Assembly: GCA_947499635.1 (NCBI GenBank) | Contig: CANMPD010000006.1 | Coordinates: 124,001-188,000 of the forward strand | Direction of reading: 5' to 3' | DNA from: an uncultured Paracoccaceae bacterium | Lineage (GTDB): Bacteria > Pseudomonadota > Alphaproteobacteria > Rhodobacterales > Rhodobacteraceae | Length of the DNA: 64,000 nucleotides | Made by a program: the position numbers and the translations under genes | Shown here: one piece after another, positions 2,120-30,857 of the stretch | Layout of the letters: every line of letters starts with the position of its first letter | How positions within the stretch are numbered: position 1 is the stretch's first letter | Notes under the pieces: model-generated | The model's input: the letters and a program-made list of their open reading frames with translations, nothing else | What the model was told of the DNA's origin: nothing | Database searches by the model: none

Positions 2120-3532
2120 TCACATGAAAAATCGGAAATCATAAACACGATCGACCATATCTGGGTTTTGCTGAAGAATCTCGGCGAATGCCTTTGAGTA
2201 TCCAAGTGTCACGGGCAACTTCTTGTAAAGCGTGTTGTTGTTCCAGTCCATCTTGGTTAAACCAAGAACCCCTGAACAGGTATCATGCCACCCACCTTCA
2301 CCTGAGAAGCGTCGCAGTAGAACAGGAGATGGTGTCGGTTTGAGTCCGCCTTCCTTGTAGACATTGTAGCGAGGGTTATCGACGTGAACTCCTTGCACGC
2401 TGCCTTGTGTCCAGAGTAAAGCTTCGTTTTTACTGAGGGGAACATACGTGCCCCTATCTACTGGATATCCATGAGCTGCGAGTGGCGAACCCTCAAAGCG
2501 AACACCTTTCCAGTCCGTGCTCTTAACAATTTGTACAAGCTCGACTTCTGTACCATCCCGAAAACTGTCAAGCGCGCCAAGTATTTCTTCTTCCTTGAAC
2601 GGTGTGTTCTTGTGAATTGTTACTTTTTTCGGGATCGCGCCTAAGTGGCCGCGCTGGTAGATTTCGAGACTGCGGGTCAACACGGACTGAATTTCATAAT
2701 ATGACAAGTAGGGGTTTCGCTGCTGGTCTTGCGTGAATTCTCGAGCATCATAGGCAACAAACTTAAACCCTGTGCCATCTGGATCAAATACTTGGCTGCA
2801 ACAGGTACTATACTGCGTTCCAGTTTTTTTGTCGGTTTTCATGGCATAGCTAATGCCGATGAAGGCCTCATCCACATTAAGACCGGCTAGTTTCCAAGGG
2901 ATTCCACCGGCTTTTGCATAGATGGCGACACTCAACCCCCACATGACGTTGGCGCGGCATTGTCTTTTAAAACTGGCTTCTCGAACAATTTGGATTGGAA
3001 TATTTGAAGGTGCGCAGTATGCCTTCAGATAGTCATGAAAGTTGAAATTTTCACCGTCAAAGCAAGCCGCCCAGCTATCTGGTAGGTACACCAAAGCAAC
3101 ATCAAAATTGCTAACCTGCTTTTGCAAAGTAGCAATGTGTTGAAAAAGTCCTTGAGCCAAACCAACCTCATCTCGCTTTTGGGCAAATGCGTCGAGTTCC
3201 TGAGGGAACGCTAACATCAAAGCATCGTCTTGGTTGGCAATTGGCACTCTAAAGAGATTGTTGAAACCCGGGTAATCAGGGTAATAATTTTTTGCTTCTC
3301 GCGGGCGAACTGTTCGGTTCATCTCCGTCGTAAGACTTCGAAGCCGATCCATATCGGCCTGTGGAGCTAGAAGAGCAAAACGAACAGATGCCGGAAACCC
3401 AAGCTTTAATCCGTAGGGTCCATGTTGGATTAAGCCAAGTAGGGGATGTTTGTGTTGCCTGCCATCGTTGAATATTAATTCAGGCTCAGCAATACGTGAG
3501 TATCCTCCAAGAGCGTTGTCTGATGCAGCCAT
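2120..3532 (-). CDS. short prokaryotic Argonaute (MID-PIWI) of a SPARSA system
   Basis: A 470-residue protein with the length and layout of short pAgos, which have only MID and PIWI domains. The MID guide-phosphate pocket is recognisable around residues 187-212 (FKRQC..N, then GGIPWKL). The PIWI part begins near residue 220 ([12 protein letters not shown]) and shows no Asp at the usual first catalytic position, as expected for nuclease-inactive short pAgos. In this family the pAgo forms a heterodimer with the SIR2-APAZ partner, uses a guide RNA to detect invading DNA, and switches on NAD+ destruction. The ATG overlaps the stop of the SIR2-APAZ gene by one base (TAATG), so the two are translationally coupled. 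Confidence 0.9.
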
Positions 3533-5295
3533 TACACCAACCTCTTTGCAAAAGCAGTTCGTGTTCCAATCAAGAACTCTGGGTTCTCTGCTTGGCCACC
3601 ATCGTCGAAAGCAGATAGTTTAACTTCAGTGTTCCGCTCATTTGTACCTAAAGCAATACGAACCCAAGCATCGAGTAACGCATCAAATGTCTTGTTGAAA
3701 CGGTTGGAGCGGCGCTTATCCAAAATCGGAATAGCATCCCGTCTTGCCCTCGGTGGCCAGACCCAGATATCAGGTTCAATTTGCAACCAAGCCTGCCCAT
3801 TTTTAACTTCTAAAGAGACGCGTGCTGCTTCTGCCCACCTCACCTGTTCTTGATGGGGATGGTCGTTGGTAACTTCCGTAAAAAGCCCCGAAATCTTCGC
3901 AGAGAAACTTCCTACGACTGACTTTAAGGGATTGAGCTGATCCAAATCATCACTGTGAGGGTCAACAATTAGCCAAGATGCGTAGCGGGTCGACCTTGAA
4001 AGAAGCGGTTTATCTTTGGCAAGGGCCTTACATAGAGCAGCTTCAATGAAACCTTTTACATGTAGGCTCTCTGGTGCTGTTGGATCGTTAGGCAAATTGA
4101 CTTCACCAATAGAGGAAATCTCGTTTTCAAAATGTTCCTGTACTAGTGATCGCCGCCCCCAGCACCATACATCCTCGGCCTTGGTGAAAATGAGATCTCC
4201 GTCAGCGTCACTCTGCGACTTGCGGAGATCGGACCAGTCCTTCGGATTTTTGAAATCTAGTGAGAGACAAGTCTTCGGAAGGGATTTGATTGGAAGAGCA
4301 TTGAAGCGCACCAACGGGTTCGCTGTTCCCACTGGCGGCATAGGAATAGAAACAGTCGCGGCGCTAGATTTCCTAACCTGGAGGTCCAATTTCGCTGTTT
4401 TGTCTTCTATGTTCCGCCAAATACGTGAAAGCAGTGAATCAAAAGTTTCAACTGGCACGTAGTGTGCTACAATGCCCTTCTGGGTCGCTTGATCCAGTAA
4501 ACTCTGGACTGCAGGAAGTGGGCGGCTCCCTTTCATTCCGGTCCAGAATAAGCCATGAGGAAAGGGATTTGACCCTTCGAGCGCAGAACTGAATAGCGCC
4601 ATGACACTCTCATCACGCCCACTATATCCTGTAACAACGAAACCAAATCGGCTACTCGCATTTTCCAAACAACTAGATAGATCCCTGTTTTGGCTCGCGA
4701 GATCAGCGGACAGATTTTTCAGGCTGTCATACCGGAAATCGCCATGGAGCTTGCAGTAGATTGGATATTCTTCGTTGTTGAGCGCGTCGATTGCGGAATG
4801 AGAACCTTCTATATGAAATGCGGACAAAGACATGGCTCCAACTTCGGCCACCGCTTTTTCGATTACACTGTCAAAATTGGTGGTGAAAACAGCACGCGTC
4901 ATCTTAGATGATAGCATTGCGCCGAAAACTCGGTGCCCAACAGATAGCGATACTTTTTCTTCCGATAACTTGGCTTTCAAATATTTACGCTGCCGCTCTC
5001 GGTCTTCACCAAAGATTTTCTCAAAACACAGAGAATATTCTTCATCATCCCACAAAGGCGGAAACCCTCTAGTCAACAAAAATGATTGGATCTTCTCTTG
5101 CACTGGTGCCAGCTGCATGTCTTGACGAGATATTTCTTGATTTTCTTCCCTACAGTAATATCGTCTCTTCATGTCCCACAGCAGATCGGTAGCGGTTGGA
5201 AGACCTGCCGATCGAGATGAGCCTGCTCCCAGAAACCAAGCGAAGTTTTCCGGGCGTTCACATATTAATGCTGTTAATTGTGCTTGATCGATCAA
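3532..5295 (-). CDS. SIR2-APAZ protein, NADase effector of a SPARSA system
   Basis: A 587-residue protein with an N-terminal SIR2 domain and a C-terminal APAZ region (about residues 300-587) that pairs with short Argonautes. SIR2 landmarks: GAGSS at 23-27, the TTNFD motif with candidate catalytic Asn140, KLHGD with candidate catalytic His184, and GYSGRDE near residue 223. Known SPARSA effectors hydrolyse NAD+ when the pAgo partner finds plasmid or phage DNA, causing dormancy or death. The start is the TTG at 5295: a stop codon lies eight codons upstream and no ATG or GTG occurs between. It is the first gene of a two-gene operon. Confidence 0.9.
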
Positions 5296-5822: not shown

Positions 5823-5961
5823 TGAAGTGCGCCAGGGGTGAAACCCCAAGTCGCTTGGAGATAGTCCGAGAGAGTAGATCGGGGACGAAGGTGCGCTCTT
5901 GTTCTTCCCATAAGTTGCGCGAATGAAGGCCAACTCTGCTGGAGTTTGTTTCCCTTTTGTG

Positions 5962-5967
5962 TATAGT
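5962..5967 (+). promoter_or_regulatory. candidate -10 element of the GHKL gene, possibly leaderless
   Basis: TATAGT lies 6 nt before the preferred ATG at 5974, and no ribosome-binding sequence is visible there. If this is the -10 box, the transcript would begin at or next to the start codon. No good -35 hexamer is seen 17 bp upstream, so the call is weak. Confidence 0.25.
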
Positions 5968-5973
5968 AATTGC

Positions 5974-8234: not shown

Positions 8235-8401
8235 GCACGCCCCATGGGATTGTCAGCTACCGCTATATTGGATCGGCTTACCGACCGGTATCCGAGCGGC
8301 GCTATACGCAGTGCAGCTATCTCGGCTGGACCGGCGTGGTCACGGTGCCCGCCACAGACGGGCGTTGCCTCTGGGTGCGCCTCTTTAAGGAGGGCTCCTA
8401 A
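8235..8401 (+). pseudogene. 3' fragment of the small membrane protein gene found at 27093
   Basis: The frame reads GTPHGIVSYRYIGSAYRPVS to the stop at 8399-8401 and matches the C-terminal two thirds of the 78-residue product of 27093-27329. The start codon and membrane segment are missing because the duplication begins inside the gene. Confidence 0.75.
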
Positions 8402-8667
8402 TGGATGCGGCGCAGATATTGCGCCTCGGGTGGCTCGTAGAGGCGGTCGTTCAGATCAAAGCGGATCTGCATCTCAACGCGCGCCATGTTTTTGAGGCAA
8501 AAGAGCAGGCTTTCGGGATCAATATCACCCGCTGCAACGACCTGGTCGTAATGAGCCCGGTCATCGCCCGAGAAGATCTCCCAAGGCGCTACAGCTTTCC
8601 AAAATGCGCCGTAATCACAAGGGGCCAGCCAGTCTTCCACGTCTTGAATGTCTTCAAAAATCGTCAT
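8398..8667 (-). CDS. small acidic hypothetical protein, copy 1
   Basis: An 89-residue acidic protein (MTIFEDIQDVEDWLAPCDYG...), about 93 percent identical to the product of 27326-27595. Both copies are complete, and the substitutions leave the frame open, so it is a real gene although it runs against its neighbours. No known domain is recognised. Small acidic proteins near ardA on mobile elements are sometimes anti-defence proteins or DNA mimics, but here that is only a guess. Its stop overlaps the truncated plus-strand gene by 4 bp. Confidence 0.65.
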   Translation of the reverse strand: MTIFEDIQDVEDWLAPCDYGAFWKAVAPWEIFSGDDRAHYDQVVAAGDIDPESLLFCLKNMARVEMQIRFDLNDRLYEPPEAQYLRRIH

Positions 8668-8834
8668 GGCCCCAGTCTAACAGATCACGCCCCCAGCGCG
8701 CAAATTTGAGGAGACATATCATGTCGTTAGCCAATGCGCCGCCCTGATGGTCTTGTGGTATGTGCATTCATAGAAACATTGTGATGGTTAACAGCCATGT
8801 GACAAGTCCTCCTGCGGGTGCGATTTCTGCTTTC

Positions 8835-9409: not shown

Positions 9410-9682
9410 TCACGCCGCGCGATAGATCAGCCGCTCGCCTGCAATCTCTGCTTCAGTGTAATCAAAAGACAAATCGCGGGCGATGGCGTCCATGTCGATA
9501 TAGTGTTCCAGATGTTGAGGGATATCGCCGAATAATCCTTCGTCGACAAATTGTTGGGCCAGTTCCTTCATGCTGTCGGTGTGGTAGATATCCACGTCAA
9601 AATCATTGGTTGAGACTGTCTCAGGATCAAAATCATATCCGATCTCACCAACGGCAATGATAAACAGCCTTGATGGGTTCAT
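9410..9682 (-). pseudogene. ardA: 3' half of an ardA-type antirestriction gene
   Basis: The 90 codons correspond to the C-terminal half of the complete ArdA at 14269 (shared pattern: FDVDIY, KELAQQFVDEGLFGDIPQHL, YIDMDAIARDLS.DY, ending YRAA). The N-terminal 75 or so residues are absent: the homology ends at about 9672, where relaxase sequence of the opposite strand begins, and the ATG at 9682 lies in that foreign sequence. It is a diverged paralogue and not a recent copy. ArdA is a DNA mimic that inhibits type I restriction; half a protein is unlikely to dimerise normally. Confidence 0.7.
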
Positions 9683-12284
9683 TGCCGAGGATCTGTTTGG
9701 GGCCTTTTCTGAAGCCGAGGCGATCAGTCAGGCGACTCAATGCCAGAAATACCTGTTTTCCCTGTCGCTCAATCCACCCCCGGATGAGGAGGTCTCGGTT
9801 GAGGAATTCGAGCAGGCCATTGCGCGTGCGGAAATGCAGCTTGGATTATCTGGTCAGCCCCGCGCCATCGTCTTTCATGAGAAAAACGGGCGTCGTCATG
9901 CCCATGCAGTATGGTCGCGAATTGATGGGCAGAAATTACGTGCGATCAATCTCCCCCACTACAAGCGTAAACTCTGCGGCTTATCGCGTGAGCTCTATCA
10001 AAGCCATGACTGGCAAATGCCAGAGGGGTTCAAAGACGCTGAAAAACGCGATCCGCTGAACTTTTCCCAACAAGAGGCAGGCCAAGCCAAACGGGAAAAG
10101 CGTGATCCCAAGGCCGTAAAGGCGATGTTTCGGGGATGTTGGGAGGCCTCAGATTCCAAGGCAGGATTTCAGGCGGCTTTGAGAGAACAGGGATTTGCCC
10201 TTGCCCGTGGAACCCGGCGTGGCTTTGTTGCCATGGATGCGAATGGCAAGATTTGGTCCCTGTCGCGCTGGTGCGGTGTTGCGCCAAAAGCGATGCGGGC
10301 GCGGCTGGGGTCTGAAATGGATCTGCCGTCTGTCCAAGATGTCTCTGACCAACTACATGATCTACCCAAGCAGCCAGCGCCCCCATCGCAAAGCGTCTTT
10401 GAAGCGCGCCGCGCCAAGCTGGTGGCCCATCAGCGGTCCGAGCGTGCGACCTTGCTGAAAGCGCAGGAAACACAGCGCATTACTGAGACGAAAGCCCGCC
10501 AAGCCCGCGTGCCAACCGGCCTGCGCGCGTTGCTATCCCGCGCGACGGGACAATATGAGGTAATGATCCAGCGCTTGAAAGATGAGGCAGACGCCGCTCA
10601 AGCGCGAGATCGCAAGGCCCAGCACGCGCTTGTCCGCAAACATCTGAGCGAACGAAAAGCGCTCAGCCGCGAAGGTCAGGCACACGGCGTCTCCCCAGCA
10701 TTCCTAGAGCAAGCGCGCCCTGACCCAAGGCAGCAATTACAACAGCGTGACGATGGCTTGGCCCAACCCAAAGCGCAACTTCTGCGCAGGCCAGATCAGG
10801 TGCTGGATCACCTCTCGCAAAACAAAGCATCCTTTAAGCGCATCGATGTGCTGCGCGCACTAGCACAAAAAATCGATGATCCGATGCAATTGCAGCAGGC
10901 TGCAGATCAGGCGCTGAAATCACCGCAATTAGTCCGCCTGCCTAGCCACGGGAGTGCGCCTGTATTTACCACAAAAGACTATCAGCAGGCCGAACGTAGC
11001 TTGGCTCAGGCAAGCTCTGCGATGGCTGCTAAATCTGGCTTTGCCGTACACGCCTCTCACATCAATGAGGCCGCGCGGGTTCAAAATGCCAAGATGCGCA
11101 AGGACTTCGGCGGAGAACTCAGCACCGAACAACGCGCCGCGCTCAATCATGTATTGGGTAAACAGCAATTATCGTCTGTGGTCGGCCTCGCCGGTGCTGG
11201 CAAAAGCACTTTGCTGGCGACAGCTCGCGATGCTTGGGCGCGCCAAGGCACAACTGTGCATGGCGCGGCGCTTGCCGGGAAAGCTGCCGAGGAACTCCAA
11301 AGCGCATCAGGTATCAACAGCCGCACGCTGGCATCCCTCGAGATGACCTGGAAAAACGGTCACACGCCCATCAACAAGGGTGATGTCTTGGTTGTTGATG
11401 AGGCTGGTATGATCGGCACGCGCCAGCTTGCGCGGGTGGCTAATCAAATGAATGAAATAGGTGCAAAGCTGGTTCTGGTGGGAGATCCTGATCAGCTCCA
11501 ACCTATTGAGGCAGGCACACCCTTCCGTGAAATCACCCAAGATCACGGGGCCGCGCGCCTGACCGAGATCCACCGGCAAAAACAGGCATGGCAGAAACAA
11601 GCCTCCCGTGATCTGGCGAGCGGAGATTTGGTGCAGGCCGTCGCGCAATACGACGCCAAGCAAACGGTCACACGCGCGCAACGCCACGGTGAAGCCATCG
11701 ATGCCCTGGTTGAGACCTATGCCATGGATGTGGCCGCCAATGGCCCTGATAAATCCCGTCTCGCATTTGCCCATAAACGCAAGGATGTGCATGCCCTAAA
11801 CCAAGCTATCCGCGCCGCCCTTAGGTCCGATGACACCGCGCCGCCCGAGGTCATGTTCGCTACAGATACCGGCAACCGCGCCTTTGCGGCCAAAGACCGT
11901 TTGGTCTTCACCCGCAATGACAAAGACATTGGCGTCAAGAACGGCATGCTGGGCACGGTTGTGACGGCCAAGACAGGCGAACTCTCCGTCGCACTGGATG
12001 GAGACACCGACCGGTTGGTCAGCTTTGACCCGCGCGCGTTCAATCACTTCGATCACGGATACGCCGTCACCATCCATAAATCCCAAGGCGCGACCGTGGA
12101 TCACGGCTATGTCCTGGCGTCTCGCTCCATGGACCGCCACCTCGCCTATGTCGCCATGACCCGCCACCGAGACGACATGCGGCTGTTTGTAAGCAATGAA
12201 GACAGGCCAAAGTGGGCTGATGGCCGTCAACACCAGATCCAGCCAACACGCAGCCGCGCAAGGGATGGGCCATCTATGGGATAG
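9657..12284 (+). CDS. 5'-truncated relaxase-helicase (MobA/TraA type)
   Basis: The frame encodes the conjugative DNA-processing enzyme that nicks the transfer origin and unwinds DNA, but starts abruptly inside the nuclease domain. The HxH metal-binding motif is present (EKNGRRHAHAVWSRID), as is a C-terminal SF1 helicase: GLAGAGKSTLL (Walker A), VLVVDEAGM (Walker B), GDPDQLQPIE, and IHKSQGATVDH with AYVAMTRHRDD. Family members begin about 35-40 residues earlier with the segment carrying the catalytic tyrosine; here that part is replaced by antisense ardA sequence, the junction being at about 9675. ATG 9657 is the nearest start. Nicking is probably lost, while the helicase part may remain functional. 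Confidence 0.75.
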   Translation: MINSLDGFIAEDLFGAFSEAEAISQATQCQKYLFSLSLNPPPDEEVSVEEFEQAIARAEMQLGLSGQPRAIVFHEKNGRRHAHAVWSRIDGQKLRAINLPHYKRKLCGLSRELYQSHDWQMPEGFKDAEKRDPLNFSQQEAGQAKREKRDPKAVKAMFRGCWEASDSKAGFQAALREQGFALARGTRRGFVAMDANGKIWSLSRWCGVAPKAMRARLGSEMDLPSVQDVSDQLHDLPKQPAPPSQSVFEARRAKLVAHQRSERATLLKAQETQRITETKARQARVPTGLRALLSRATGQYEVMIQRLKDEADAAQARDRKAQHALVRKHLSERKALSREGQAHGVSPAFLEQARPDPRQQLQQRDDGLAQPKAQLLRRPDQVLDHLSQNKASFKRIDVLRALAQKIDDPMQLQQAADQALKSPQLVRLPSHGSAPVFTTKDYQQAERSLAQASSAMAAKSGFAVHASHINEAARVQNAKMRKDFGGELSTEQRAALNHVLGKQQLSSVVGLAGAGKSTLLATARDAWARQGTTVHGAALAGKAAEELQSASGINSRTLASLEMTWKNGHTPINKGDVLVVDEAGMIGTRQLARVANQMNEIGAKLVLVGDPDQLQPIEAGTPFREITQDHGAARLTEIHRQKQAWQKQASRDLASGDLVQAVAQYDAKQTVTRAQRHGEAIDALVETYAMDVAANGPDKSRLAFAHKRKDVHALNQAIRAALRSDDTAPPEVMFATDTGNRAFAAKDRLVFTRNDKDIGVKNGMLGTVVTAKTGELSVALDGDTDRLVSFDPRAFNHFDHGYAVTIHKSQGATVDHGYVLASRSMDRHLAYVAMTRHRDDMRLFVSNEDRPKWADGRQHQIQPTRSRARDGPSMG

Positions 12285-13112: not shown

Positions 13113-13457
13113 TCAATAGAATTTCCCACAGGTGGCTTCGATCACGGCAACCAATACAGTGCTGGGGTGATAGCTTTGATATTGTTCAACATTGGCGATG
13201 AGATCGTTTAGCTGTGCGTCTGTCAAACCCGTCTCTGAAAAATAGTTGTCGGCGATACAGCGCGCCATTTCCGGTTTGTCACGCGTGACAATCGTCGACG
13301 CCATAACGACTTGGCTGTTGATGTATGCTGTTTGGTCCGCCTTCGACCATTCCAAAAACTCGACGCCCGTGAACCCTTCCGCCACAGAAACCTGTGGACA
13401 GGTAAGCGCCGCAAGTACGACAGCCTGTCCGAGCCATCCTCGAAATGTTCCAATCAA
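13113..13457 (-). CDS. secreted small hypothetical protein
   Basis: A 114-residue protein with a probable signal peptide (MIGTFRGWLGQAVVLAALTC, cleavage after SVA). The mature part is about 88 residues with two cysteines near the middle and the C-terminus that could form a disulfide. The likely start is the TTG at 13457, since a stop lies close upstream. Size and layout recall small periplasmic immunity or stress proteins, but no specific match is claimed. Convergent with the coiled-coil gene. Confidence 0.45.
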   Translation of the reverse strand: MIGTFRGWLGQAVVLAALTCPQVSVAEGFTGVEFLEWSKADQTAYINSQVVMASTIVTRDKPEMARCIADNYFSETGLTDAQLNDLIANVEQYQSYHPSTVLVAVIEATCGKFY

Positions 13458-15571: not shown

Positions 15572-16282
15572 ATGTCTACGAACGCAAGTTCCAGTCTAGT
15601 TTTTATTGAGGACGATGGTGATGAGGCGCTTTATAGCGATCTTGGCAATAACGATGCCTATGTATTTACCAATGCCGATGACGCCTTGATCCAGATCACC
15701 ACCAGTGGCGCGACGGTCAACCCTTCAAGCTTTGCAAACACACAGGCCCGCCATATCGCGGCCAACGGGGACGGAACCTACACCTTGCTGTGGGAGGTCG
15801 GTGATGGTGAGCGTATCGATCTTTGGACCTTGGATGCAAACGGAGCCTATATCGGCGGGCGAAATGGCTTGACGGATACAGAGCTGGCAGAGTTTGAAGC
15901 GCAGTTCCAAAGCGACCTAAATGGCGATGGCAGCGTGCTTGCACTCATTGAGGACGATGGTGATGAGGCGCTTTATAGCGATCTTGGCAATAACGATGCC
16001 TATGTATTTACCAATGCCGATGACGCCTTGATCCAGATCACCACCAGTGGCGCGACGGTCAACCCTTCAAGCTTTGCAAACACACAGGCCCGCCATATCG
16101 CGGCCAACGGGGACGGAACATACACCTTGCTGTGGGAGGTCGGTGATGGTGAGCGTATCGATCTTTGGACCTTGGATGCAAACGGAGCCTATATCGGCGG
16201 GCGAAATGGCTTGACGGATACAGAGCTGGCAGAGCTTGAAGCGCAGTTCCAAAGCGACCTAAATGGCGATGGCCTTTTCTGA
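15572..16282 (+). CDS. tandem-duplicated tryptophan-containing repeat protein (W_rich_C-like)
   Basis: A 236-residue acidic protein made of two almost identical 114-residue units (DNA repeat of 342 bp, 15605-15946 and 15947-16282). Each unit has beta-strand-rich sequence with LLWEVGDGERIDLWTLDANG and ends in ELAEFEAQFQSDLNGDG, a Ca-binding-like DxNxDG loop. This is the pattern of the tryptophan-rich C-terminal domain seen in large secreted proteins and adhesins. There is no signal peptide and no RTX nonapeptide, so the gene may be a detached fragment of a secreted protein. Only a handful of base differences separate the units, so the duplication is recent. Confidence 0.6.
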   Translation: MSTNASSSLVFIEDDGDEALYSDLGNNDAYVFTNADDALIQITTSGATVNPSSFANTQARHIAANGDGTYTLLWEVGDGERIDLWTLDANGAYIGGRNGLTDTELAEFEAQFQSDLNGDGSVLALIEDDGDEALYSDLGNNDAYVFTNADDALIQITTSGATVNPSSFANTQARHIAANGDGTYTLLWEVGDGERIDLWTLDANGAYIGGRNGLTDTELAELEAQFQSDLNGDGLF

Positions 16283-17426: not shown

Positions 17427-20400
17427 TCATGTATCAGCATCGTGTGCGGTTTCATCAAATTGCAACTCTTTAAGTGGGGATCTAGTTATTCCATTGTATC
17501 GCCGCCTAAGGATCGCAAGATCCTCAGCGATGAGATCATCGTCAACCATGTCGACCATCCCAGTATCATGAACCACAAAGTTCGCGCCGAGGAGCACATC
17601 GCCGTATAGAACAGTTGCACTCAGACCATGACTGTTCTTCTGTGGGGATACAAAGGGTACCGGCGTCGCGATATATGACGCGCGTTCTGGCAAACTGGAC
17701 CTAGCTTCAGTCTCGGAAAATGGAATATCTCCAACATCCGTGACAATTTGGAAGGGACCGTTATCCGCATGAACAAAGGTGCAGAATAATCTTAGATACT
17801 CCTCCTGCGCGGTATCTGTTTGAATGTTGAGTGCGACAGAATTCACATGGTGGAACCGTCTGGACGTGCCATCCAGAAGAACTGCGCCTGTCGCAGATAT
17901 TAACGCGCTAACAAGTAAGGTGTCAGCGCCCTCGGCAGATATTTGAAGATCGACAAGTCGCAGATCTGGATAGCATGAAAAAAGAGCCTGCCGCATTCCA
18001 GTGACGGTTGCCCCTTCGAAAGCGTCAAACTCTCTTTCGAAATGTGCCGCTTTACAGATTTTTCCGAGCACCGCTTCGGCATCAGGAATATCATTCCATT
18101 CCGCCTTAATTGGCGGATTATCTTCCCATTCGTTCGCGAGTTGGAGCAGCGGAGCGCTATGAACGCCCCCCCCGTTTTCGGGTAACTCGAGACAAAGAGC
18201 TGCGGTGAGCGCTGCCAATGGAATACGTGCTGAATCCGCCCCGTCGTCTATGGCCTCCTGATAGAGTTCCATGGCACGCTTGGGGTCCGCCACCTCCACG
18301 CCAATGCCTCTCTCGAGGTTATAGGCGAAGTTGAACTTGGCCCCAACGTCACCGTCGTCCATGGCCTCCTGATAGAGTTCCATGGCACGCTTGGGGTCCG
18401 CCACCTCCACGCCAATGCCTCTCTCGAGGTTATAGGCGAAGTTGACCCTGGCCCCAACGTGACCGTCGTCCATGGCCTCCTGATAGAGTTCCATGGCACG
18501 CTTGGGGTCCGCCGCCTCCACGCCAATGCCTTTTTGTAAGCAAATCGCATAATTGCGTTTCGCAGCAGGCCATTTCAGATTGGAGGCCCCCTTCCAAAGA
18601 CGAGCCGCGACAACATCAGATTTCTCGACGCCATACCCCTTCCAATGACAATAGCCTAGAGCGGATTTTGCACGTGCATTGCCTTGATCTGACGCAAGCT
18701 GTAACGCCGCTAGCGCCGAGGCTGGGCAGTCTTCATCTGCATCAAGATATGCACTCACAATCGCCGCAGCATGTTCGCAGTATGCATTTCGGGCTGCCTC
18801 TGTTTCATTCCAACCCACCGCATTCAACAGTTCGCCAGTGAAACTTTCTTTGGGAAAGTCCTGCGCGATACGCAGCATAAAGCTCGCAGTTGCCTCCGGA
18901 TCAACTGTCCAACACCAGCAAATTAATCGTTCGTAGACATCAGGTTGGCAATGTAGACCTTGTAACACGAACCATTCTCCAAGCAGGTCAGGTAGCAGGC
19001 CCGGAATAAGGCCACTGAGGCCACCAATCCCCCCGCCACGCGGTGCACCGTTTATGATCAACGCCGCTTTGTCATCCGTTCCGGGTTTATACTGATTTAA
19101 GGGCCAGGTCTTGAGTTTCGACAGATCAAGCGCGCGCAGGATGGTTGCTGCGACAGCGATGTGAAGACCTGTGTGATCTTCATACAATTCAGGAGGATCA
19201 TCCGCAAATTCTCCAGACCAGCGCCGTTTCCGGTAAATCGTCAAAATACGGTCTAAGAGCTCTGTTTTGTCCCAACTTGACTGAAAACTGTTATCTGCCA
19301 AAGCGAGGCCAAGGAAATACGCGTATAGGGGACGACCGGCATTATCGAACCTTGCCAGTGAGCTTTCAATGGACTTATCGCTGTGCTTGATCACGCTCTC
19401 AGGGTTCTGATGCCGTGCTATTTGTTTAGCTAATTCTCGCAATTCAACGGGTTTCAAAGCCTTGAGTTCGACCACGCCATCCTGCCCGAATTGATACTGC
19501 TTTGCGGCTAGATTAATTTTCCCAAGGACTTCGTAACGTTGTGATGATTTGATAAATTCACGTTTATCAAGTTCCATCTGTTCGAACCATGCTGCATAGA
19601 CGCTTGAAAGTTCAAAATCAGCTTCAGTTCCACCTTCTCGCATGATTTGGGTAGAGGCTGATTTCTTACCCGATTTTTGCGTGGATGCCGTCTTGGGGCT
19701 GTACTTTCTTATGCCACCACGATCCCAACGTTGACGTTCCAACAACAAGAAACGGACAGGGTGTTTTAGTTCCTTTGAACGATGCGCCAATATTGCCATA
19801 GCCGGTCCAATGCGCTTTCCAGGCTCGTGAACATAGTCGACCACAATAAGCGTCGGTTCGACTGGTTGCCAGTCGAACCAATCTTCTGCGAACTCGGCTA
19901 GGCTCTCTGCATTCATATAGCCCGCATTGAAACCAAAATCGGGACGCGCTCGCTGAACCAAATCATATGCAAGACGGCTCTTGCCTTGGCCTGCGGATCC
20001 TGCAAGCTGGAGCCAAAGGAAACGACGCTCGTCACGCAGGAAATGCTCGAGCTCGCTAATTTGAGCATCTCTACCAAGTACATCTATTCGATTGTCTGCA
20101 TCAGACGCGTAGTGCAGGATCTGGTTCTCCTGCGTAAACTCTGTTTCCGCGTCGGTGAGCCTTGGCTGTAATCTGTCGAGGCGAATGAAAGCTTGCTTCT
20201 TGTAAGTCGAAAGGATGTCATCGAAAGTCAAATCGCCATCAAGGGCGTGTTTGGTGATGGAAATTTTTCCAGTGGCGTACTTGCTGTTAACCCGTGAAAG
20301 AAAGGCAAGTTCAATTGCACGCTCCACGGCACTGCCACCGCCTTTGAGTTTCTTGAGAAGATCGTCCATATTGCTGATTGCGATATTTTTGCCTATCGCG

Positions 20401-20558
20401 GCTTCACAATCGGTATGCAGCGTTATCAACTTGTCTTCACGCACAACTGCAGGATGACCTTGGAAAAAAGTGCCGACACCTTGTCTGAACCGTTTTCCTC
20501 TATCCTTGTCATCTCCAATGTAGAGCAGAATGCATTCGCAAAAAACGGCGTAATCCAA
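17427..20558 (-). CDS. STAND NTPase with Sel1-like repeats, predicted antiviral sensor
   Basis: A 1043-residue protein. Residues 1-150 are an unrecognised N-terminal domain. A STAND-type NTPase follows: VLGRDAQISELEHFL, P-loop AGSAGQGKSRLA (187-198) and Walker B TLIVVDYV near 238. From about residue 640 to 790 there are Sel1-like helical repeats, three of which are nearly identical at DNA level. The last 250 residues form a further unrecognised domain. N-terminal effector, central STAND switch and C-terminal repeat sensor is the layout of Avs-type phage-detection proteins, so defence is a reasonable inference but not shown. TTG 20558 is the start, with GAGAGG 6 nt upstream. It follows the MORN-like gene by 54 bp. 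Confidence 0.65.
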   Translation of the reverse strand: MDYAVFCECILLYIGDDKDRGKRFRQGVGTFFQGHPAVVREDKLITLHTDCEAAIGKNIAISNMDDLLKKLKGGGSAVERAIELAFLSRVNSKYATGKISITKHALDGDLTFDDILSTYKKQAFIRLDRLQPRLTDAETEFTQENQILHYASDADNRIDVLGRDAQISELEHFLRDERRFLWLQLAGSAGQGKSRLAYDLVQRARPDFGFNAGYMNAESLAEFAEDWFDWQPVEPTLIVVDYVHEPGKRIGPAMAILAHRSKELKHPVRFLLLERQRWDRGGIRKYSPKTASTQKSGKKSASTQIMREGGTEADFELSSVYAAWFEQMELDKREFIKSSQRYEVLGKINLAAKQYQFGQDGVVELKALKPVELRELAKQIARHQNPESVIKHSDKSIESSLARFDNAGRPLYAYFLGLALADNSFQSSWDKTELLDRILTIYRKRRWSGEFADDPPELYEDHTGLHIAVAATILRALDLSKLKTWPLNQYKPGTDDKAALIINGAPRGGGIGGLSGLIPGLLPDLLGEWFVLQGLHCQPDVYERLICWCWTVDPEATASFMLRIAQDFPKESFTGELLNAVGWNETEAARNAYCEHAAAIVSAYLDADEDCPASALAALQLASDQGNARAKSALGYCHWKGYGVEKSDVVAARLWKGASNLKWPAAKRNYAICLQKGIGVEAADPKRAMELYQEAMDDGHVGARVNFAYNLERGIGVEVADPKRAMELYQEAMDDGDVGAKFNFAYNLERGIGVEVADPKRAMELYQEAIDDGADSARIPLAALTAALCLELPENGGGVHSAPLLQLANEWEDNPPIKAEWNDIPDAEAVLGKICKAAHFEREFDAFEGATVTGMRQALFSCYPDLRLVDLQISAEGADTLLVSALISATGAVLLDGTSRRFHHVNSVALNIQTDTAQEEYLRLFCTFVHADNGPFQIVTDVGDIPFSETEARSSLPERASYIATPVPFVSPQKNSHGLSATVLYGDVLLGANFVVHDTGMVDMVDDDLIAEDLAILRRRYNGITRSPLKELQFDETAHDADT
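18251..18583 (-). repeat. three near-identical 111-bp repeats coding Sel1-like units
   Basis: Units of 111 bp (37 residues, GIGVE.ADPKRAMELYQEAM...) begin at about 18251, 18362 and 18473. They differ by very few bases, much less than the codon drift expected of old repeats, so they arose by recent tandem duplication or are homogenised. Confidence 0.85.
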
Positions 20559-20612
20559 TTGTAGCCTCTCAGAAGTCTAATACCTAATAATTGAGAGTAC
20601 GATAGCTAACTG

Positions 20613-21086
20613 TTAGAACGGGTCAACCGTTTGCCCGTTGATCCAAAACTCAAAAGTTTCCAGACTGCCAGTGACTTCATCGTAATTTTCTATGGCAGGC
20701 CCATCTGTGCGATGGTAATCCCCGGCGACACGAAACTTTTTCTGAAGTAGAGAGCCATCCTTCGCTCGATAAATGACTGCCGGTTTATTCTCTTCACGGC
20801 TTACACTCCCGTCTATGGCATAGACGCGATCAGTTTCTTCGCCGGTTTCGGGATCATATCGTAAAACGGCAGGCTGATCACCGTCACGATGCACTTTGTT
20901 GTCCTGAAACCATGATGTCTGTGTAATTCGCCCTGTGTAGGGACAGTAACGCGTTATCGCAGGTCTATCGCCTGGGCGACCAAGATTATCGTTTTCGTCT
21001 CTCCAACACTCTGCGACTACATTGCCGGTTTCATCGTCAATTTCAATCTCCACTGAATACTCTAGTGAAGTGGTCCTTCTAATCAT
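20613..21086 (-). CDS. MORN-like repeat protein preceding the STAND gene
   Basis: A 157-residue acidic protein with four to five short repeats of the type RDGDQPAVLRYDPETG and HRTDGPAIENYDEVTG, i.e. MORN/YwqK-like beta-hairpin repeats as found in many toxin-immunity and effector proteins. ATG 21086 begins MIRRTTSLEYSVEIEIDDETG; an upstream TTG at 21104 is less likely. It is co-directional with the STAND NTPase 54 bp downstream, so a shared transcript is likely. It might regulate, sense for, or neutralise the STAND protein. No exact family assignment. Confidence 0.5.
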   Translation of the reverse strand: MIRRTTSLEYSVEIEIDDETGNVVAECWRDENDNLGRPGDRPAITRYCPYTGRITQTSWFQDNKVHRDGDQPAVLRYDPETGEETDRVYAIDGSVSREENKPAVIYRAKDGSLLQKKFRVAGDYHRTDGPAIENYDEVTGSLETFEFWINGQTVDPF

Positions 21087-21409
21087 GCACCCATACTGCA
21101 CCAAATTACACGAAGAGTCAAATTATTAATATATTTCAGAATGATACACGATGGTGTCAATGCGAATTTTTGCACTTCGAATGCCGTGGAATGCACCGGA
21201 TTTCTGCGGTTTTCTGAGGTTGCCGACCCAAGCGATTGGGCGGTCTTAACGGCCACTAAGTTTCGTTCAAACCCGGAGCGCTCCCCAGACACAGGGATCA
21301 AAAAATGTGTCCTAAAGTTCACGTATCACCAGTCAGCAGACTGCGTGATCCTCTCCATGCCAGCTTTTTGGCTGGCGTTCACAAGCCAACTGCCCCAACT
21401 GCGAACCTA
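21087..21409. other. divergent intergenic region, no gene seen
   Basis: Between the MORN-like gene and the next plus-strand gene. The open frame at 21141-21410 has no ribosome-binding site and no recognisable product. Promoters for both directions are expected. The 5' limit of element-like sequence lies around 21360-21410. Confidence 0.35.
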
Positions 21410-21823
21410 ATGCTTCAACGCGCTATGTCTCGAGTCATTGAGTTCTCCAAACAGGGCGGTGAGATCATTCACGATGGCGCAGAGACACGGCTGAGTTGCA
21501 GTCGAAACATCAAATCCCCGCAACAGGTGCTCGACATCGCGCGGATGGAACGTTTCGGAGAAGCATCGCTCTATGACATCAAGGGGCAGCGGGTGTTTCT
21601 CATTCGTGACTTCAAAGATGAGGCGTTAGAGCAACCCAAGGGCCTTACCCTGCCTCTGATCCGCATGGATGATGCCTGGCGGATGAACAGCCGCCGGACA
21701 ATCAACCGCCATTACGAAAAAATCGAACGCCCGTCTCAGCGTGCGGTTGATCGCAGATTGCTATCGATGCAGTTCTGGCTCGATGCGTCAGCGCAAATCC
21801 TAAACCTCAACGCGGGTGCGTAG
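21410..21823 (+). CDS. hypothetical protein of the mobile element
   Basis: A 137-residue basic protein (MLQRAMSRVIEFSKQGGEII...) with clear codon-like composition. The frame continues upstream to 21305 without a convincing start, so the gene could be 5'-truncated at a junction. Not recognised. It precedes the transfer accessory genes in the same direction, 122 bp before the next. Confidence 0.45.
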   Translation: MLQRAMSRVIEFSKQGGEIIHDGAETRLSCSRNIKSPQQVLDIARMERFGEASLYDIKGQRVFLIRDFKDEALEQPKGLTLPLIRMDDAWRMNSRRTINRHYEKIERPSQRAVDRRLLSMQFWLDASAQILNLNAGA

Positions 21824-25369: not shown

Positions 25370-25675
25370 ATGTCCGATAAACCCTCCTTCAAAGTCATCT
25401 TCAAGATTAACGGGCTGTTCCTTCGCGCACTGATCAGTGCCGGGGTCGCCTGGTTGTTTTGGCAAGGCTACAGGTCTGGCTCCTTTGTGATGGGCGGATT
25501 TGCGGGCATGTTCGCCGCAACCGGTGGTTTTTTACTGCTCAAAGCCCTGTTTGAGCTCTTTACCCTCAGCCTGCGCATCACCCATTGGGGCCGGTTTAAA
25601 CGTAAAGGCGCTGCGCCAAAGGCCGATCCAGTGGCCCGGCAAGAGGAACTGCGCGCAAAGGGCCTCATCCGATGA
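25370..25675 (+). CDS. small membrane protein coupled to the coupling protein
   Basis: A 101-residue protein with two helices (about 14-31 and 38-62) and a basic C-terminal tail. Its stop overlaps the start of the coupling-protein gene (ATGA), which implies co-translation. T4CPs of this type often have a separate small membrane partner that supplies the transmembrane anchor, and the following T4CP lacks obvious N-terminal helices, so that role fits. Confidence 0.6.
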   Translation: MSDKPSFKVIFKINGLFLRALISAGVAWLFWQGYRSGSFVMGGFAGMFAATGGFLLLKALFELFTLSLRITHWGRFKRKGAAPKADPVARQEELRAKGLIR

Positions 25676-27096
25676 TGCGCTGGCCTAAATCCCGTGCGCC
25701 GGACCCTATTGACCCGCAGGGGCGGCGCATCATTGGTCTCACGATTGAGGATGGGCATCCGATCCTTGCCCCCGAAGGCCATAGTCTGCTGCTGAGCGCC
25801 AATGGCGGTGGGAAGACCCGGCGTGGCGCAATGCCTTGGCTGTTTTCTTTTCTCTCCTCCTCCCCCAAAGACGCGATTTTAATTGCGGATAGTAAAAACG
25901 GCGAAGTCAGCATTCAGGCTGCGAAGATGGCGGCGGATATGGGGCGCAAGGTCGCCGTCATCGACGATATGGGCATCTGGCCAGAGCTCGCCCCCTATCG
26001 CGTATCGATCAATCCCTTTGGCGCGGCGGTCTCGGCCTATCGACGTGATCCCCGCGATGTGCTGTTTGCCACAGAGACCATCAATGCCGCGCTTATTCCC
26101 GAACCCGCAGGCGGAGACGCAAAGAACAAATACTTTCGCGATGCCCCCCGGGATCTGCTTGAGTTCGTGCAAAACACGCTCTTGAAACGCAACCCAGAGG
26201 CTACAACGCCCGGTGCCACTTCCGTTATCGTGAATGACCCCGATCTCTTGCGCAGCTACGCGGAGATTGAGGCCGAGGAAGGCGAACCGATGCTTATGTC
26301 GCAAGCCAAAAACCTGCTCGAGATGAGCGGTCATGAGCATTGGCCGCAGCACCTCAAAGAAGCACAGCGTGCCATCAAACTCTTTGGTCCGGGCACCAGG
26401 CTGCATGAGGTTGGCGCTGAGGCCACGCTGACCTATGAGGACCTGATCCGCGAGGGGTATGTCATTTTCCTCGCGGGTCCACAGGCCTATATGAACCGGC
26501 TCGGCAATTACTACGCGCTGCATATTATGGGGTTTTGCGATGCGCTTTATCACGGCGCGGGCGTTTTGCGGGCGGTTTGCGATGAGTTCACCAACACCCC
26601 CCTGAAATCCCTCGTGGAATCCCTGACAACGCTTAGGGCCTTTGGCACGCAGATCCACATAATTGCCCAGTCCAGATCAGAAATCATCCGCCGCTTTGGT
26701 GAGCTGGAATGCCGCACCATCGAAGAGAACTGTATCGTGAAGCTGTGGTTCGGCTTTTCCTCATTTGAGGAAGCACAGCGCCTGTCAAAAGCCATGGGCG
26801 ATGAATTTGCCGTTGCAACCGCGCTTGGCGGCGACAGCGACGGCCTAAAGACCAGCACCAATCTCAGCCTGACCAAACAATCCCATATGACCCCCGCAGA
26901 ACTGATGGCGATGCCAAGCGATCAGGGTCTTGCCCATATCAAGGGGGTTGGCTTTGTCAGGTTCCGCACGCTCGGGCAGGAAAACATCGCACCCTATTGC
27001 CACCTGATTGCGCCCAATCCGCTGGAGGGTGGGCGCTTACTCCCTGATCCCAAAATCACCCTTGTAACGCCTAATATCACCGGAGGTCCCTCATGA
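25672..27096 (+). CDS. type IV coupling protein (VirD4/TraG/TraD family)
   Basis: A 474-residue ATPase: Walker A SANGGGKTRRG (42-52), Walker B AVCDEFTN with following Q-rich sensor HIIAQSRSEI, and TFGxx-like segments IADSKNGEVS and INPFGAAVS typical of VirD4-type proteins. These hexameric ATPases recruit the relaxase-DNA complex to a type IV secretion channel. N-terminal membrane helices are missing; the coupled small membrane protein upstream may compensate. It overlaps both neighbours by ATGA. No mating-channel genes are visible nearby. Confidence 0.85.
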   Translation: MMRWPKSRAPDPIDPQGRRIIGLTIEDGHPILAPEGHSLLLSANGGGKTRRGAMPWLFSFLSSSPKDAILIADSKNGEVSIQAAKMAADMGRKVAVIDDMGIWPELAPYRVSINPFGAAVSAYRRDPRDVLFATETINAALIPEPAGGDAKNKYFRDAPRDLLEFVQNTLLKRNPEATTPGATSVIVNDPDLLRSYAEIEAEEGEPMLMSQAKNLLEMSGHEHWPQHLKEAQRAIKLFGPGTRLHEVGAEATLTYEDLIREGYVIFLAGPQAYMNRLGNYYALHIMGFCDALYHGAGVLRAVCDEFTNTPLKSLVESLTTLRAFGTQIHIIAQSRSEIIRRFGELECRTIEENCIVKLWFGFSSFEEAQRLSKAMGDEFAVATALGGDSDGLKTSTNLSLTKQSHMTPAELMAMPSDQGLAHIKGVGFVRFRTLGQENIAPYCHLIAPNPLEGGRLLPDPKITLVTPNITGGPS

Positions 27097-27329
27097 GATT
27101 TGCAGCCTTGTTCCTATGGATATTGGTGCCCTTGGGGCTGTGGCTGGTGGTCGCGCAGTTTGGCACGCCCCATGGGATTGTCAGCTACCGCTATATTGGA
27201 TCAGCTTACCGCCCGGTATCCGAGCGGCGCTATACGCAGTGCAGCTATCTCGGCTGGATCGGCGTGGTCACGGTGCCCGCCACAGACGGGCGCTGCCCCT
27301 GGGTACGCCTCTTTAAGGAGGGCTCCTAA
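27093..27329 (+). CDS. small membrane-anchored protein after the coupling protein
   Basis: A 78-residue protein with an N-terminal helix (MRFAALFLWILVPLGLWLVV) and a soluble tail with two cysteines (SYRYIGSAYRPVSERRYTQC...). ATGA overlap with the coupling protein. A truncated copy lies at 8235. Possibly a periplasmic part of the transfer machinery. Confidence 0.6.
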   Translation: MRFAALFLWILVPLGLWLVVAQFGTPHGIVSYRYIGSAYRPVSERRYTQCSYLGWIGVVTVPATDGRCPWVRLFKEGS

Positions 27330-27655
27330 TGGACGCGACGCAGGTATTGCGCCTCGGCTGGCTCATAGAGGCGGTCTTTCAGACCAAAGCGGATCTGCAT
27401 TTCAACGCGCGCCATGTTTTTGAGGCAAAAGAGCAGGCTTTCGGGGTCAATATCACCCCCTGCAACGACCTGGTCGTAATGAGCCCGGTCATCGCCCGAG
27501 AAGATCTCCCAAGGCGCTACAGCTTTCCAAAATGCGCCGTAATCACAAGGGGCCAGCCAGTCTTCCACGTCCTGAATGTCTTCAAAAATCGTCATGGCCC
27601 CAGTCTAACAGATCACGCCCCCAGCGCGCAAATTTGAGGAGACATATCATGTCGT
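27163..27655 (+). repeat. duplicated transfer-region block, copy 2 (original context)
   Basis: Here the flanking genes are complete, so this is the parental copy of the block at 8232-8733. Roughly 18 differences in about 500 bp. Confidence 0.9.
27326..27595 (-). CDS. small acidic hypothetical protein, copy 2
   Basis: An 89-residue acidic protein, the counterpart of 8398-8667. It is placed against the direction of the transfer operon and overlaps the preceding gene by 4 bp. Differences between the two copies include synonymous and conservative changes (for example IRRH/VRRH at the end and DLND/GLKD inside). No known family; an anti-defence or regulatory role is conceivable but unsupported. 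Confidence 0.65.
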   Translation of the reverse strand: MTIFEDIQDVEDWLAPCDYGAFWKAVAPWEIFSGDDRAHYDQVVAGGDIDPESLLFCLKNMARVEMQIRFGLKDRLYEPAEAQYLRRVH

Positions 27656-28947: not shown

Positions 28948-29238
28948 ATGTCGCCCCCGAAGACACCACCTCCAAAACCCACACCGCCCAGCCTGCATCT
29001 AAACTGGCAGGACTGGCTGCCCTATCTGGAGGACAACGATGCAAGCGACGCGGAAAAGCGTCAGCTCATCGAAACCCTCTGGTCCATCATTCTCGGCTTC
29101 GTCGATCTCGGCTGGGAGGTCGGGAACGGCGCGCCCACTACTGATGAAACCGGTGGACAAACACTGGACATCACCGACGCTTTGCGCGCGGCTGTGCTAT
29201 ACTCAAAAGAACAAGACACAGAACAGGAGGCCCCATGA
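28948..29238 (+). CDS. small protein coupled to the large serine recombinase
   Basis: A 96-residue protein. The first 25 residues are Pro/Lys-rich (PPKTPPPKPTPPS), followed by an acidic helical part (LNWQDWLPYLEDNDASDAEK). AGGA is 5 nt before ATG 28948. Its stop overlaps the recombinase start (ATGA). Large serine integrases need a small directionality factor for excision, and a coupled upstream gene is a candidate, though no family is recognised. Confidence 0.5.
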   Translation: MSPPKTPPPKPTPPSLHLNWQDWLPYLEDNDASDAEKRQLIETLWSIILGFVDLGWEVGNGAPTTDETGGQTLDITDALRAAVLYSKEQDTEQEAP

Positions 29239-30857
29239 CCAATCAAAACCGTAAAGCATTGATTTATTGCAGGGTCTCCTCAAAGGGACAGGAAAAAGAC
29301 GGTCACGGTTTAGAATCCCAAGAAACCCGCTGCCGTCAATTTGCCGAAGCCAAAGGCTATGAGGTCGTCATGGTGTTTCCCGATACGATCTCAGGTGCGG
29401 GCAGCTTTATGAAGCGGCCCGGTATGGTGGCTTTGCTGTCGTTTTTAGATGCGCAGCCTGATGAAGAATTTGCGGTCATTTTTGACGATCTCAAGCGCGC
29501 AAGCCGCGACACACGCGCGTTTTTGGATCTGCGCGAAGCGTTCCGTCAGCGCAATGTCATCGTTGAATGTTTAAACTTCAAATTTGACGACACTCCAGAG
29601 GGGGAGTTCATTGAAACCATCATCGCCGCCCAAGGCGCGCTAGAGCGCAAGCAAAACCAACGGCAAGTCTCGCAGAAGATGAAGGCGCGGATGGAAAGCG
29701 GCTATTATGTGCATGCCGCTCCCATCGGCTACAAGTATGTATCAGTTAAAGGGCGGGGTAAAATGCTGTTCCCGGATGAGCCTTTGGCGAAGATCATTCG
29801 TGAAGCTTTTGACGGCTATGCCAATGGACGGTTCGGGTCGCAGGCCGAAGTAACGCGCTTCTTCGAGACATTCCCAGAGTTCCCCCGCAATAAGCATGGC
29901 CGTGTGGTGCAGCAGCGTACTGCCGATATCCTGACCCATCCGGTCTACACTGGCCATATTCATTCCGAGCACTACACCATCAACTGGCTCAAGGCCCAAC
30001 ATGAGGCCATCGTCTCGCTGGACACCTTTGAGCGTGTACAGGCCAAACGTCGCTGCGCAACCTACGCGCCCAAGCGGTCCAATATTGGAGACGACTTCGC
30101 CCTGCGCGGGACCATTGTCTGTGGCTGCTGCGATACCCCGCTACGGTCTTCCTGGAGCACCGGTCACAGCAAACGCTACCCCTATTATCTCTGTCAGACC
30201 AAAAGCTGCGAAGCCTATGGCAAGTCCATCCCGCGTGACAAGGTAGAAAGCCAAGTTGGCGATTTGATCAAAACGCTGCAGCCGACTCGCAACCTAATCA
30301 CACTCGCCACAGCCATGTTCCGCCAAGCTTGGGCTGCGCGTCAATCTCAGGCCCAAGCGGTACGCATATCGGCCAAAACGGAAGCCCTGCGCCTAGACAA
30401 AGAAATCAACGCTGTGCTCGACCGCATTATGTCTGCCAGTAACAACGCCATCATTCGACGCTATGAAGACAAGGTGGAAATGCTAGAACACCAGAAGGCC
30501 ATGATGCTTGAGAAATTGGACAATCAAAGCGAACCAAAAGGCGGGTTCGAAGAAAAACTAGAACTCGCGCTGCGATTCCTCGCAAACCCGGGGAAGATAT
30601 GGGAAAACGGAGGCATTCAAACCCGCAGACTGGTCCTAAAACTCGCCTTCACCACCCCCATTACATACTGCCCAAAAGAAGGTGCTAGAACTCCGGTATT
30701 ATCCTTACCGTTCAAAGCCTTAGACGCATGTAGACATGGGAAATTCTTAAATGGTGCGGTCGAGAAGACTCGAACTTCCACGGGTGTTACCCCACAGCGA
30801 CCTCAACGCTGCGCGTCTACCAATTCCGCCACGACCGCACTATATCAGGCTTGGTGA
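29235..30857 (+). CDS. large serine recombinase (integrase) of the element
   Basis: A 540-residue protein. N-terminal resolvase domain: YCRVSSKGQEKDGHGLESQE (catalytic Ser in RVSS), DDLKRASRD and GEFIETIIAAQGALERKQNQRQ. A recombinase domain follows, then a zinc-ribbon pair CGCCDTPL...CQTKSCEAYG near residues 296-330, and a coiled coil. The last about 32 residues (from NGAVEKTRTSTGV) are translated from the antisense of the tRNA-Leu gene, so insertion at the tRNA created or extended the C-terminus. This enzyme most likely integrates the element at that tRNA. Coupled to the upstream small gene by ATGA. Confidence 0.9.
   Translation: MTNQNRKALIYCRVSSKGQEKDGHGLESQETRCRQFAEAKGYEVVMVFPDTISGAGSFMKRPGMVALLSFLDAQPDEEFAVIFDDLKRASRDTRAFLDLREAFRQRNVIVECLNFKFDDTPEGEFIETIIAAQGALERKQNQRQVSQKMKARMESGYYVHAAPIGYKYVSVKGRGKMLFPDEPLAKIIREAFDGYANGRFGSQAEVTRFFETFPEFPRNKHGRVVQQRTADILTHPVYTGHIHSEHYTINWLKAQHEAIVSLDTFERVQAKRRCATYAPKRSNIGDDFALRGTIVCGCCDTPLRSSWSTGHSKRYPYYLCQTKSCEAYGKSIPRDKVESQVGDLIKTLQPTRNLITLATAMFRQAWAARQSQAQAVRISAKTEALRLDKEINAVLDRIMSASNNAIIRRYEDKVEMLEHQKAMMLEKLDNQSEPKGGFEEKLELALRFLANPGKIWENGGIQTRRLVLKLAFTTPITYCPKEGARTPVLSLPFKALDACRHGKFLNGAVEKTRTSTGVTPQRPQRCASTNSATTALYQAW
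30752..30838 (-). tRNA. tRNA-Leu(GAG)
   Basis: On the minus strand: acceptor GCGGTCG/CGACCGC, discriminator A, encoded CCA, D-loop GGTAGACG, anticodon stem CAGCG/CGCTG with loop TTGAGGT (anticodon GAG at 30802-30804), long type II variable arm and T-arm GTTCGAGTC. Length 87 nt. Its 3' end faces the accessory region, as expected when the tRNA 3' end is an attachment site. Confidence 0.97.

Follow-up and report, generated by a model that had tools for sequence, protein, structure and literature searches.

A stretch of 64,000 nucleotides from an uncultured Paracoccaceae bacterium (contig CANMPD010000006.1, positions 124,001 to 188,000; hereafter the window) contains two adjacent genes, which encode a small protein with DGPA repeats and a large STAND-like NTPase. 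We interpret them as a conflict module of the NLR/Avs-like type that constitutes candidate defence cargo of related integrative mobilizable elements, which form a family within the Alphaproteobacteria, and put the probability of this reading at about 0.58. The anatomy of the large protein, the recurrence of the pair in other genomes and its location on a mobile element among defence genes were the observations leading to this interpretation. The recurring DGPA-repeat partner and a C-terminal domain of the large protein, designated C-dom, are newly described here; no description of either was found in our searches.

Both ORFs are located on the minus strand (21086-20613 and 20558-17427) and are separated by 54 bp, exactly where the initial annotation had placed them. 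An upstream TTG at position 21104 would extend the small protein to 163 aa. Scans for promoters and terminators gave values near the shuffled expectation. The 1043-aa protein combines Walker A and B motifs with a C-terminal repeat region, the architecture of the STAND NTPase superfamily, and homologous NTPases are present in other genomes. Its Walker A motif GSAGQGKS covers residues 187-194 and includes Lys193, which had been proposed as the P-loop lysine, while the Walker-B-like sequence LIVVDY corresponds to residues 237-242. The Sel1 repeats, already taken for the sensor-like part, were corroborated by Pfam (E 7.6e-17, four stretches) and by Sel1 chains of the PDB (best E 2.5e-16). NCBIfam, searched at E ≤ 1, gave one match in the large protein, which lay in the Sel1 part and below the cut-off (E 0.035). 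On the DNA level, the Sel1 part harbors a 111-bp tandem repeat (18241-18531, 2.6 copies, 97% matches). A profile of the NTPase (A5) did not find any PDB chain at E ≤ 0.1. Both termini of the protein had been called unrecognised, which applies to the N-terminal 155 residues or so and not to the C-terminus, where about 180 aa form the conserved and portable C-dom. A transcription regulator was set aside as identity of the protein, since no DNA-binding domain was matched.

The repeat of the small protein reads HRxDGPA. Its initial assignment to a MORN-like family was given up, as no MORN model (Pfam MORN / MORN_2) was matched at E ≤ 1; the best Pfam entry was DUF2963 (E 0.019), and NCBIfam, YwqK included, gave no match at E ≤ 1. 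In a viral relative MORN_2 was matched with an E-value of only 0.057. The DGPA-repeat profile found no PDB chain at E ≤ 1. Used as a single query, the window protein matched neither plasmid records nor viral contigs, and its homologue from genome G596 matched one plasmid record. DGPA proteins encoded by plasmids of Miltoncostaea, Curtobacterium and Frigidibacter had no neighbour annotated as STAND at the places checked, which comprise part of the Miltoncostaea copies and one of the two Curtobacterium records. An 'AAA family ATPase' is annotated upstream of a Miltoncostaea gene.

The co-occurrence of the two genes, which the initial annotation had proposed to search for, was studied in overlapping samples comprising 195 related genomes, 337 genomes of the class, 349 genomes of the phylum and two sets of 21 genomes each. 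DGPA-repeat matches were obtained in 2/195, 7/337, 4/349, 4/21 and 1/21 genomes, respectively, altogether in 11 different ones. Five of them (G000, G122, G460, G596, G400) carry the small gene at loci sharing backbone genes with the element in the window, and at all five a STAND-type NTPase gene follows directly downstream on the same strand. None of the remaining six (G635, G721, G553, G332, G770, G776) showed this arrangement, the contig of G332 ending approximately 1 kb downstream of the DGPA gene. The distance between the two genes is 54 bp in the window, 44 bp in G122, 76 bp in G596 and 10 bp in G400. The small gene of G460 is split over two contigs whose ends do not overlap, and its C-terminal fragment is located just before the NTPase gene. 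The downstream NTPases of G122, G596 and G460 match the same profile as that of the window. The G400 protein is a P-loop NTPase from a different STAND-like family (Pfam NPHP3_N, E 3.2e-4, under the cut-off). In keeping with a role as STAND sensors, the partner NTPases vary in their repeats, which are of the Sel1 type in the window protein and comprise 19 ankyrin stretches in that of G460.

A Fisher test on these numbers (5/5 versus 0/6) gave a p-value of 0.002, or of 0.008 when locus L188, an element copy with a small gene and no NTPase, was included. The statistic is post hoc, as element copies and other loci were grouped after the data had been seen and the grouping leaves aside the mobile-element setting of G635, G721, G553 and G332. 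With this limit, the pairing exceeds chance. A hypergeometric value of 4e-7 for the association of the pair with the element marker A9 was discarded, since A9 had been built from G000, G460 and G400, so that G000 and G460 match it by construction.

Within an element family equipped with defence genes, the pair is part of the cargo and not of the backbone. An integrase, a relaxase and a coupling protein beside a tRNA gene identify the element as integrative and mobilizable, its integration being predicted. The right end is formed by the large serine recombinase gene overlapping tRNA-Leu, beyond which chromosomal genes follow (cytochrome oxidase, PriA, FtsH). The window recombinase is 48% identical to that of G400. 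No flanking direct repeats that could serve as attachment sites turned up when the 400 bp on the tRNA side were compared with the left flank and with all other parts of the window; the best match (E 0.10) was in inverted orientation. The marker A9 was found at 12 places in 10/337 genomes of the class sample, including all four pair-carrying genomes of that sample; two of the four belong to the training set of A9, which leaves G122 and G596 as the only independent genomes, and the marker of G122 resides on another contig. Six of the 10 marker-bearing genomes lack the small gene, indicating that it does not belong to the backbone. At marker loci PADLOC disclosed GajA and GajB of Gabija (G760), HamB of Hachiman (G146) and SIR2-APAZ/pAgo (G543) among eight proteins picked by eye from four of the nine loci fetched. 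Since the pair occurs in distant members of the class and on elements with defence-carrying relatives, the earlier proposal of a candidate defence module composed of a sensor and a partner stands. The features of the window are listed in Table 1.

Table 1. Positions of the two genes, the regions of the large protein and the element genes within the window
Feature	Position	Strand	Basis or remark
DGPA-repeat partner	20613..21086	-	ORF, 157 aa from ATG
STAND-like NTPase	17427..20558	-	ORF, 1043 aa, TTG start; family searches
N-terminal region of STAND protein, residues 1-155	20094..20558	-	putative effector or adaptor by position
P-loop NTPase core, residues ~156-300	19659..20093	-	Walker A 19977-20000, Walker-B-like 19833-19850
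Middle region of STAND protein, residues ~301-625	18684..19658	-	partial alignment with four homologues, PDLLGE-like motif in common
Sel1 repeats, residues ~626-785	18204..18683	-	Pfam Sel1, PDB Sel1 chains
C-dom, residues ~850-1030 (~180 aa)	17469..18011	-	conserved portable domain, no Pfam or NCBIfam match
Short Argonaute and SIR2-APAZ (SPARSA-like pair)	2120..5295	-	PADLOC E 3.9e-193 and 2.2e-193
Relaxase-helicase, element backbone	9606..12284	+	Pfam Relaxase 5.8e-12, AAA_30 5.8e-54
A9-family marker, element backbone	13113..13457	-	found in 10/337 class-sample genomes
Type IV coupling protein, element backbone	25672..27096	+	Pfam TraG-D_C 4.6e-17
Large serine recombinase	29235..30857	+	Pfam Resolvase, Recombinase; 3' end overlaps tRNA-Leu 30752-30838

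Some additional features of the element were noticed. Beside the SPARSA-like pair, a gene at 5923-7737 (plus strand) encodes a HATPase_c_3 protein with a weak C-terminal match to the Shedu-like SduA_C and is possibly a defence gene. The gene at 15572-16282 (plus strand) for a tryptophan-rich W_rich_C protein consists largely of two 342-bp tandem copies (99% matches). A segment of 309 bp is present in two direct copies within the element (8401-8709 and 27329-27637), which are identical at 298/309 positions and lie about 19 kb apart. On contig C8 of the same genome we detected a second element (L274) with backbone homologues, which encodes a 1035-aa protein with Sel1 repeats and a 1029-aa SMC/AAA-like protein.

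C-dom is characterized by the core YLRFFC..V.G..GPF.IV and the motif G.VEM..D. No Pfam family was assigned to it in the proteins scanned, and its profile found no PDB chain at E ≤ 1; by Pfam, NCBIfam and PDB it is a newly noted domain, for which no literature search was made. The C-terminal 214 residues of the large protein matched 10/195 related genomes, and C-dom was found in 9/349 genomes of the phylum sample, together 16 different genomes. C-dom is fused to a STAND protein in three of them, the window's genome, G006 (nSTAND1-ankyrin) and G288, the latter with two fusions, one nSTAND1-ankyrin and one nSTAND1 without a matched repeat family. In G134 and in G499 (Nioella, L141; neighbour nSTAND1-ankyrin) it is encoded by the gene directly after a STAND-type gene. 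The ORF of the G084 copy is truncated at the beginning of the contig and encodes TPRs ahead of C-dom, and the G485 gene precedes a VirD4-like ATPase gene. Outside these samples, C-dom was found on a Thiodictyon plasmid (L004) in a protein annotated as TPR, in which a P-loop-like start was seen by eye, and in the acidobacterium Mor1 (L110), where its gene follows an NTPase gene matching A5. On an S. medicae plasmid (L005) it lies before a VirD4-like ATPase gene; the order of a C-dom gene directly followed by a VirD4/TraG-like ATPase gene was observed in two genomes (L005, 5719-8019; L059, 4994-7197). GTDB contigs contained 109 C-dom relatives, and the best 80 of the 109 stem mostly from records titled Micavibrio or Alphaproteobacteria. 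A C-dom gene was called in 78 of these 80, with a product of 200-235 aa in 75/78, and a neighbour of at least 400 aa with a P-loop pattern lies directly beside it in 4/78; Mor1 and Nioella account for two of these neighbours with their STAND-type genes. A standalone C-dom protein, mostly of about 206 aa, recurs in Micavibrio and other alphaproteobacterial metagenome-assembled genomes (L064-L143 except L110 and L141).

No close homologue of the whole protein was found in genome contigs, which were searched with exact peptide patterns suited to close relatives only, or in plasmids. The N-terminal 600 residues matched 5/195 related genomes, the own genome among them. By tblastn, 15 of 72,556 plasmid records were matched by pieces only (Sel1 part 12, C-terminus 2, NTPase 1). 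Profile A5, which was built from five of its own ten matching loci, identified the window, G122, G596, G460, the SC52 plasmid, G153, G134, G128, Mor1 and G760. Several of our results weigh against a joint defence module. The small gene accompanies the A5 NTPase at 4/10 of these loci and is missing at 6/10, which in part is the finding named in the initial annotation as speaking against the module; the reverse case was encountered once, in L188, the sixth element copy. The NTPase genes of G122 and G596 have interrupted reading frames in the assemblies, and these copies may be dead or mis-assembled. A tree united the small proteins of G122, G596, G400 and L188 (100/99) but did not resolve the position of the window protein, a long branch, relative to the paired clade, and it did not bring the five paired copies together; the L188 protein had been entered twice, and the input did not comprise G721 and G553. 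Pfam NTPase matches of the large protein remained under the threshold (AAA_16, E 0.011; nSTAND_NTPase5, E 0.013). Residues 1-155 matched nothing in Pfam, NCBIfam or PADLOC, including no nuclease, SIR2 or protease as recognisable N-terminal effector. Homology between the N-terminus of the window NTPase and those of the other four paired NTPases was not detectable either; a faint similarity of motifs, noticed by eye, was dropped. PADLOC, to whose library the Avs models presumably belong, gave no family at E ≤ 1 for either window protein, and the suggested membership in Avs was not sustained. Moreover, C-dom is not specific for STAND proteins, as such a link was not seen in 9/16 genomes, among them G160, G151, G146 and G436, whose C-dom neighbours are missing from the gene calls.

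If the pair is a defence module, it may act as follows. In an uninfected cell the STAND protein would be held off. The C-terminal Sel1 solenoid together with C-dom, whose position suggests a ligand recogniser, would bind a protein of the invader or a host factor that has been perturbed, upon which the NTPase core would assemble and the N-terminal region of about 155 aa would trigger or recruit a toxic output. The DGPA-repeat protein would act with the STAND protein, most likely binding it as a negative regulator or as an adaptor of the sensor. This division of labour within the STAND protein, with sensing by the C-terminal repeats, switching by the NTPase and action by the N-terminus, is proposed by analogy with STAND defence proteins.

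Avs/AVAST, especially Avs5, resembles the window protein in the order of an N-terminal effector position, a STAND NTPase and a C-terminal repeat sensor, as far as outlined in passages of PMC12931631. Since the same passages describe Avs5 with Sel1-like, TPR or PPR repeats, a STAND sensor of the Sel1 type is not new, and this part of the initial proposal does not hold. Unlike Avs, the window protein lacks a matched SIR2 or other effector and a PADLOC match, and it possesses C-dom and an upstream DGPA-repeat partner. Hachiman and AVAST have recurrently acquired upstream genes in the form of nuclease-protease pairs (sections of PMC12799240), which are similar to our pair in that a separate, typically upstream gene has been taken up by several different immune NTPases; they differ from it in that no enzyme family was matched by the upstream DGPA-repeat protein. 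Indirect sensing is reported for bNACHT25 (PMC12169576). The combination of an NTPase with a repeat solenoid for ligand sensing is shared with the conflict-system STAND NTPases with superstructure-forming repeats covered in parts of PMC7159879. 'MORN' is absent from the main text of that paper, whose comparison with C-dom was confined to passages; it was not found in one part of PMC3482391, the full text of which contains one occurrence, and occurs solely as a surname in PMC10910872. No literature joining MORN repeats, STAND and anti-phage activity was found, which is weak evidence as subscription papers were mostly outside the search.

The two genes may also be linked without a joint function, the DGPA gene belonging to the element in its own right, perhaps derived from a phage and involved, for example, in anti-defence or in the interaction with the recipient, and the STAND gene being a separate cargo. 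L188 fits this explanation, as its small gene follows the resolvase gene and no NTPase is present. The same is true for the frequency of DGPA repeats in viral contigs, and common ancestry could account for some of the linkage, because all five pairs reside on related elements. Order, strand and a spacing of 10-76 bp have been kept, though, with NTPases that are only 26-34% identical in the matched part or belong to another STAND-like family, and the small gene is not part of the backbone. We consider mere linkage unlikely. A toxin-antitoxin or polymorphic toxin-immunity pair with the STAND protein as toxin and the small protein as antitoxin or immunity protein would agree with the small gene lying 54 bp upstream of the large one, and such a pair would allow for the orphan antitoxin-like gene of L188; YwqK is reportedly named in a paper on LXG toxins (PMC8321402), which was likewise counted in its favor. 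However, MORN and YwqK models did not match the small protein, the STAND protein gave no match to a toxin or secretion domain, the one neighbour scanned (ORF 21305-21823, NCBIfam) contains no toxin family, and relatives of the NTPase exist without the small gene. Thus, the toxin-immunity setting suggested initially has become improbable.

Another conceivable role of the DGPA protein is that of a bait or decoy, which mimics phage DGPA proteins and is guarded by the STAND protein, or from which the latter is released when a phage homologue or the target of that homologue engages it. One degenerate pattern derived from alignment A6 hit at least 600 stretches of viral contigs, of which at least 139 encode relatives. 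Eighty of these loci (L180-L259), some of which stem from the same or near-identical contigs, contain 236 ORFs matching the DGPA profile, often as neighbouring paralogues. One of these IMG/VR loci, L188, is not a virus and represents an integrative mobile element of the same kind as that in the window (serine recombinase 39% and resolvase 43% identical, coupling protein present). The protein encoded by two of the IMG/VR contigs (L180/L181) resembles the window protein (31% over 134 aa, 60 bits) about as closely as the paired homologue of G460 does (59 bits), which would suit a mimic. With the viral DGPA protein of L206 as query, two records each of Celeribacter phage P12053L and Agrobacterium phage Atu_ph07 were found, both phages of alphaproteobacteria; the best match in P12053L is a small gene upstream of a primase-helicase gene. 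The HRxDGPA repeats are thus common to the window protein and these viral proteins, whose loci differ from the window by their frequent tandem paralogues and by the absence of A5 NTPase and C-dom matches in all 80. Neither the NTPase profile nor C-dom matched any viral contig, and the N-terminal half of the STAND protein and C-dom had no match in phages. Searched against phages, the small protein of the window itself gave no match at E ≤ 0.01 (50,697 records) and that of G596 none at 1e-3, neither found a viral-contig relative as a single query, and the similarity of the repeats may be generic. No phage with a DGPA protein is known for this host, which was also counted against a bait. As the partner proteins had found nothing in direct searches of phages, we rated this possibility slightly lower, as very improbable.

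Going beyond a defence module in the elements studied here, there is a slim chance that the pairs represent a new, partnered class of bacterial NLRs, in which different STAND families whose sensor repeats (Sel1, ankyrin or others) can be exchanged share a phage-derived or phage-mimicking DGPA partner, a bait or an off-switch displaced by phage homologues. In parallel, C-dom would be a STAND-associated domain with a separate standalone role in Micavibrio and its kin. C-dom connects STAND proteins, loci of VirD4-like ATPases and the standalone protein of Micavibrio and other alphaproteobacterial genomes. If our interpretation of the pair as defence cargo is true, bacterial NLR-like sensors would recurrently be accompanied by a small protein with relatives among virus-encoded repeat proteins that are arranged in tandem arrays. 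This partner would then give direct access to the stimuli detected by these sensors and to the function of the abundant viral DGPA proteins.

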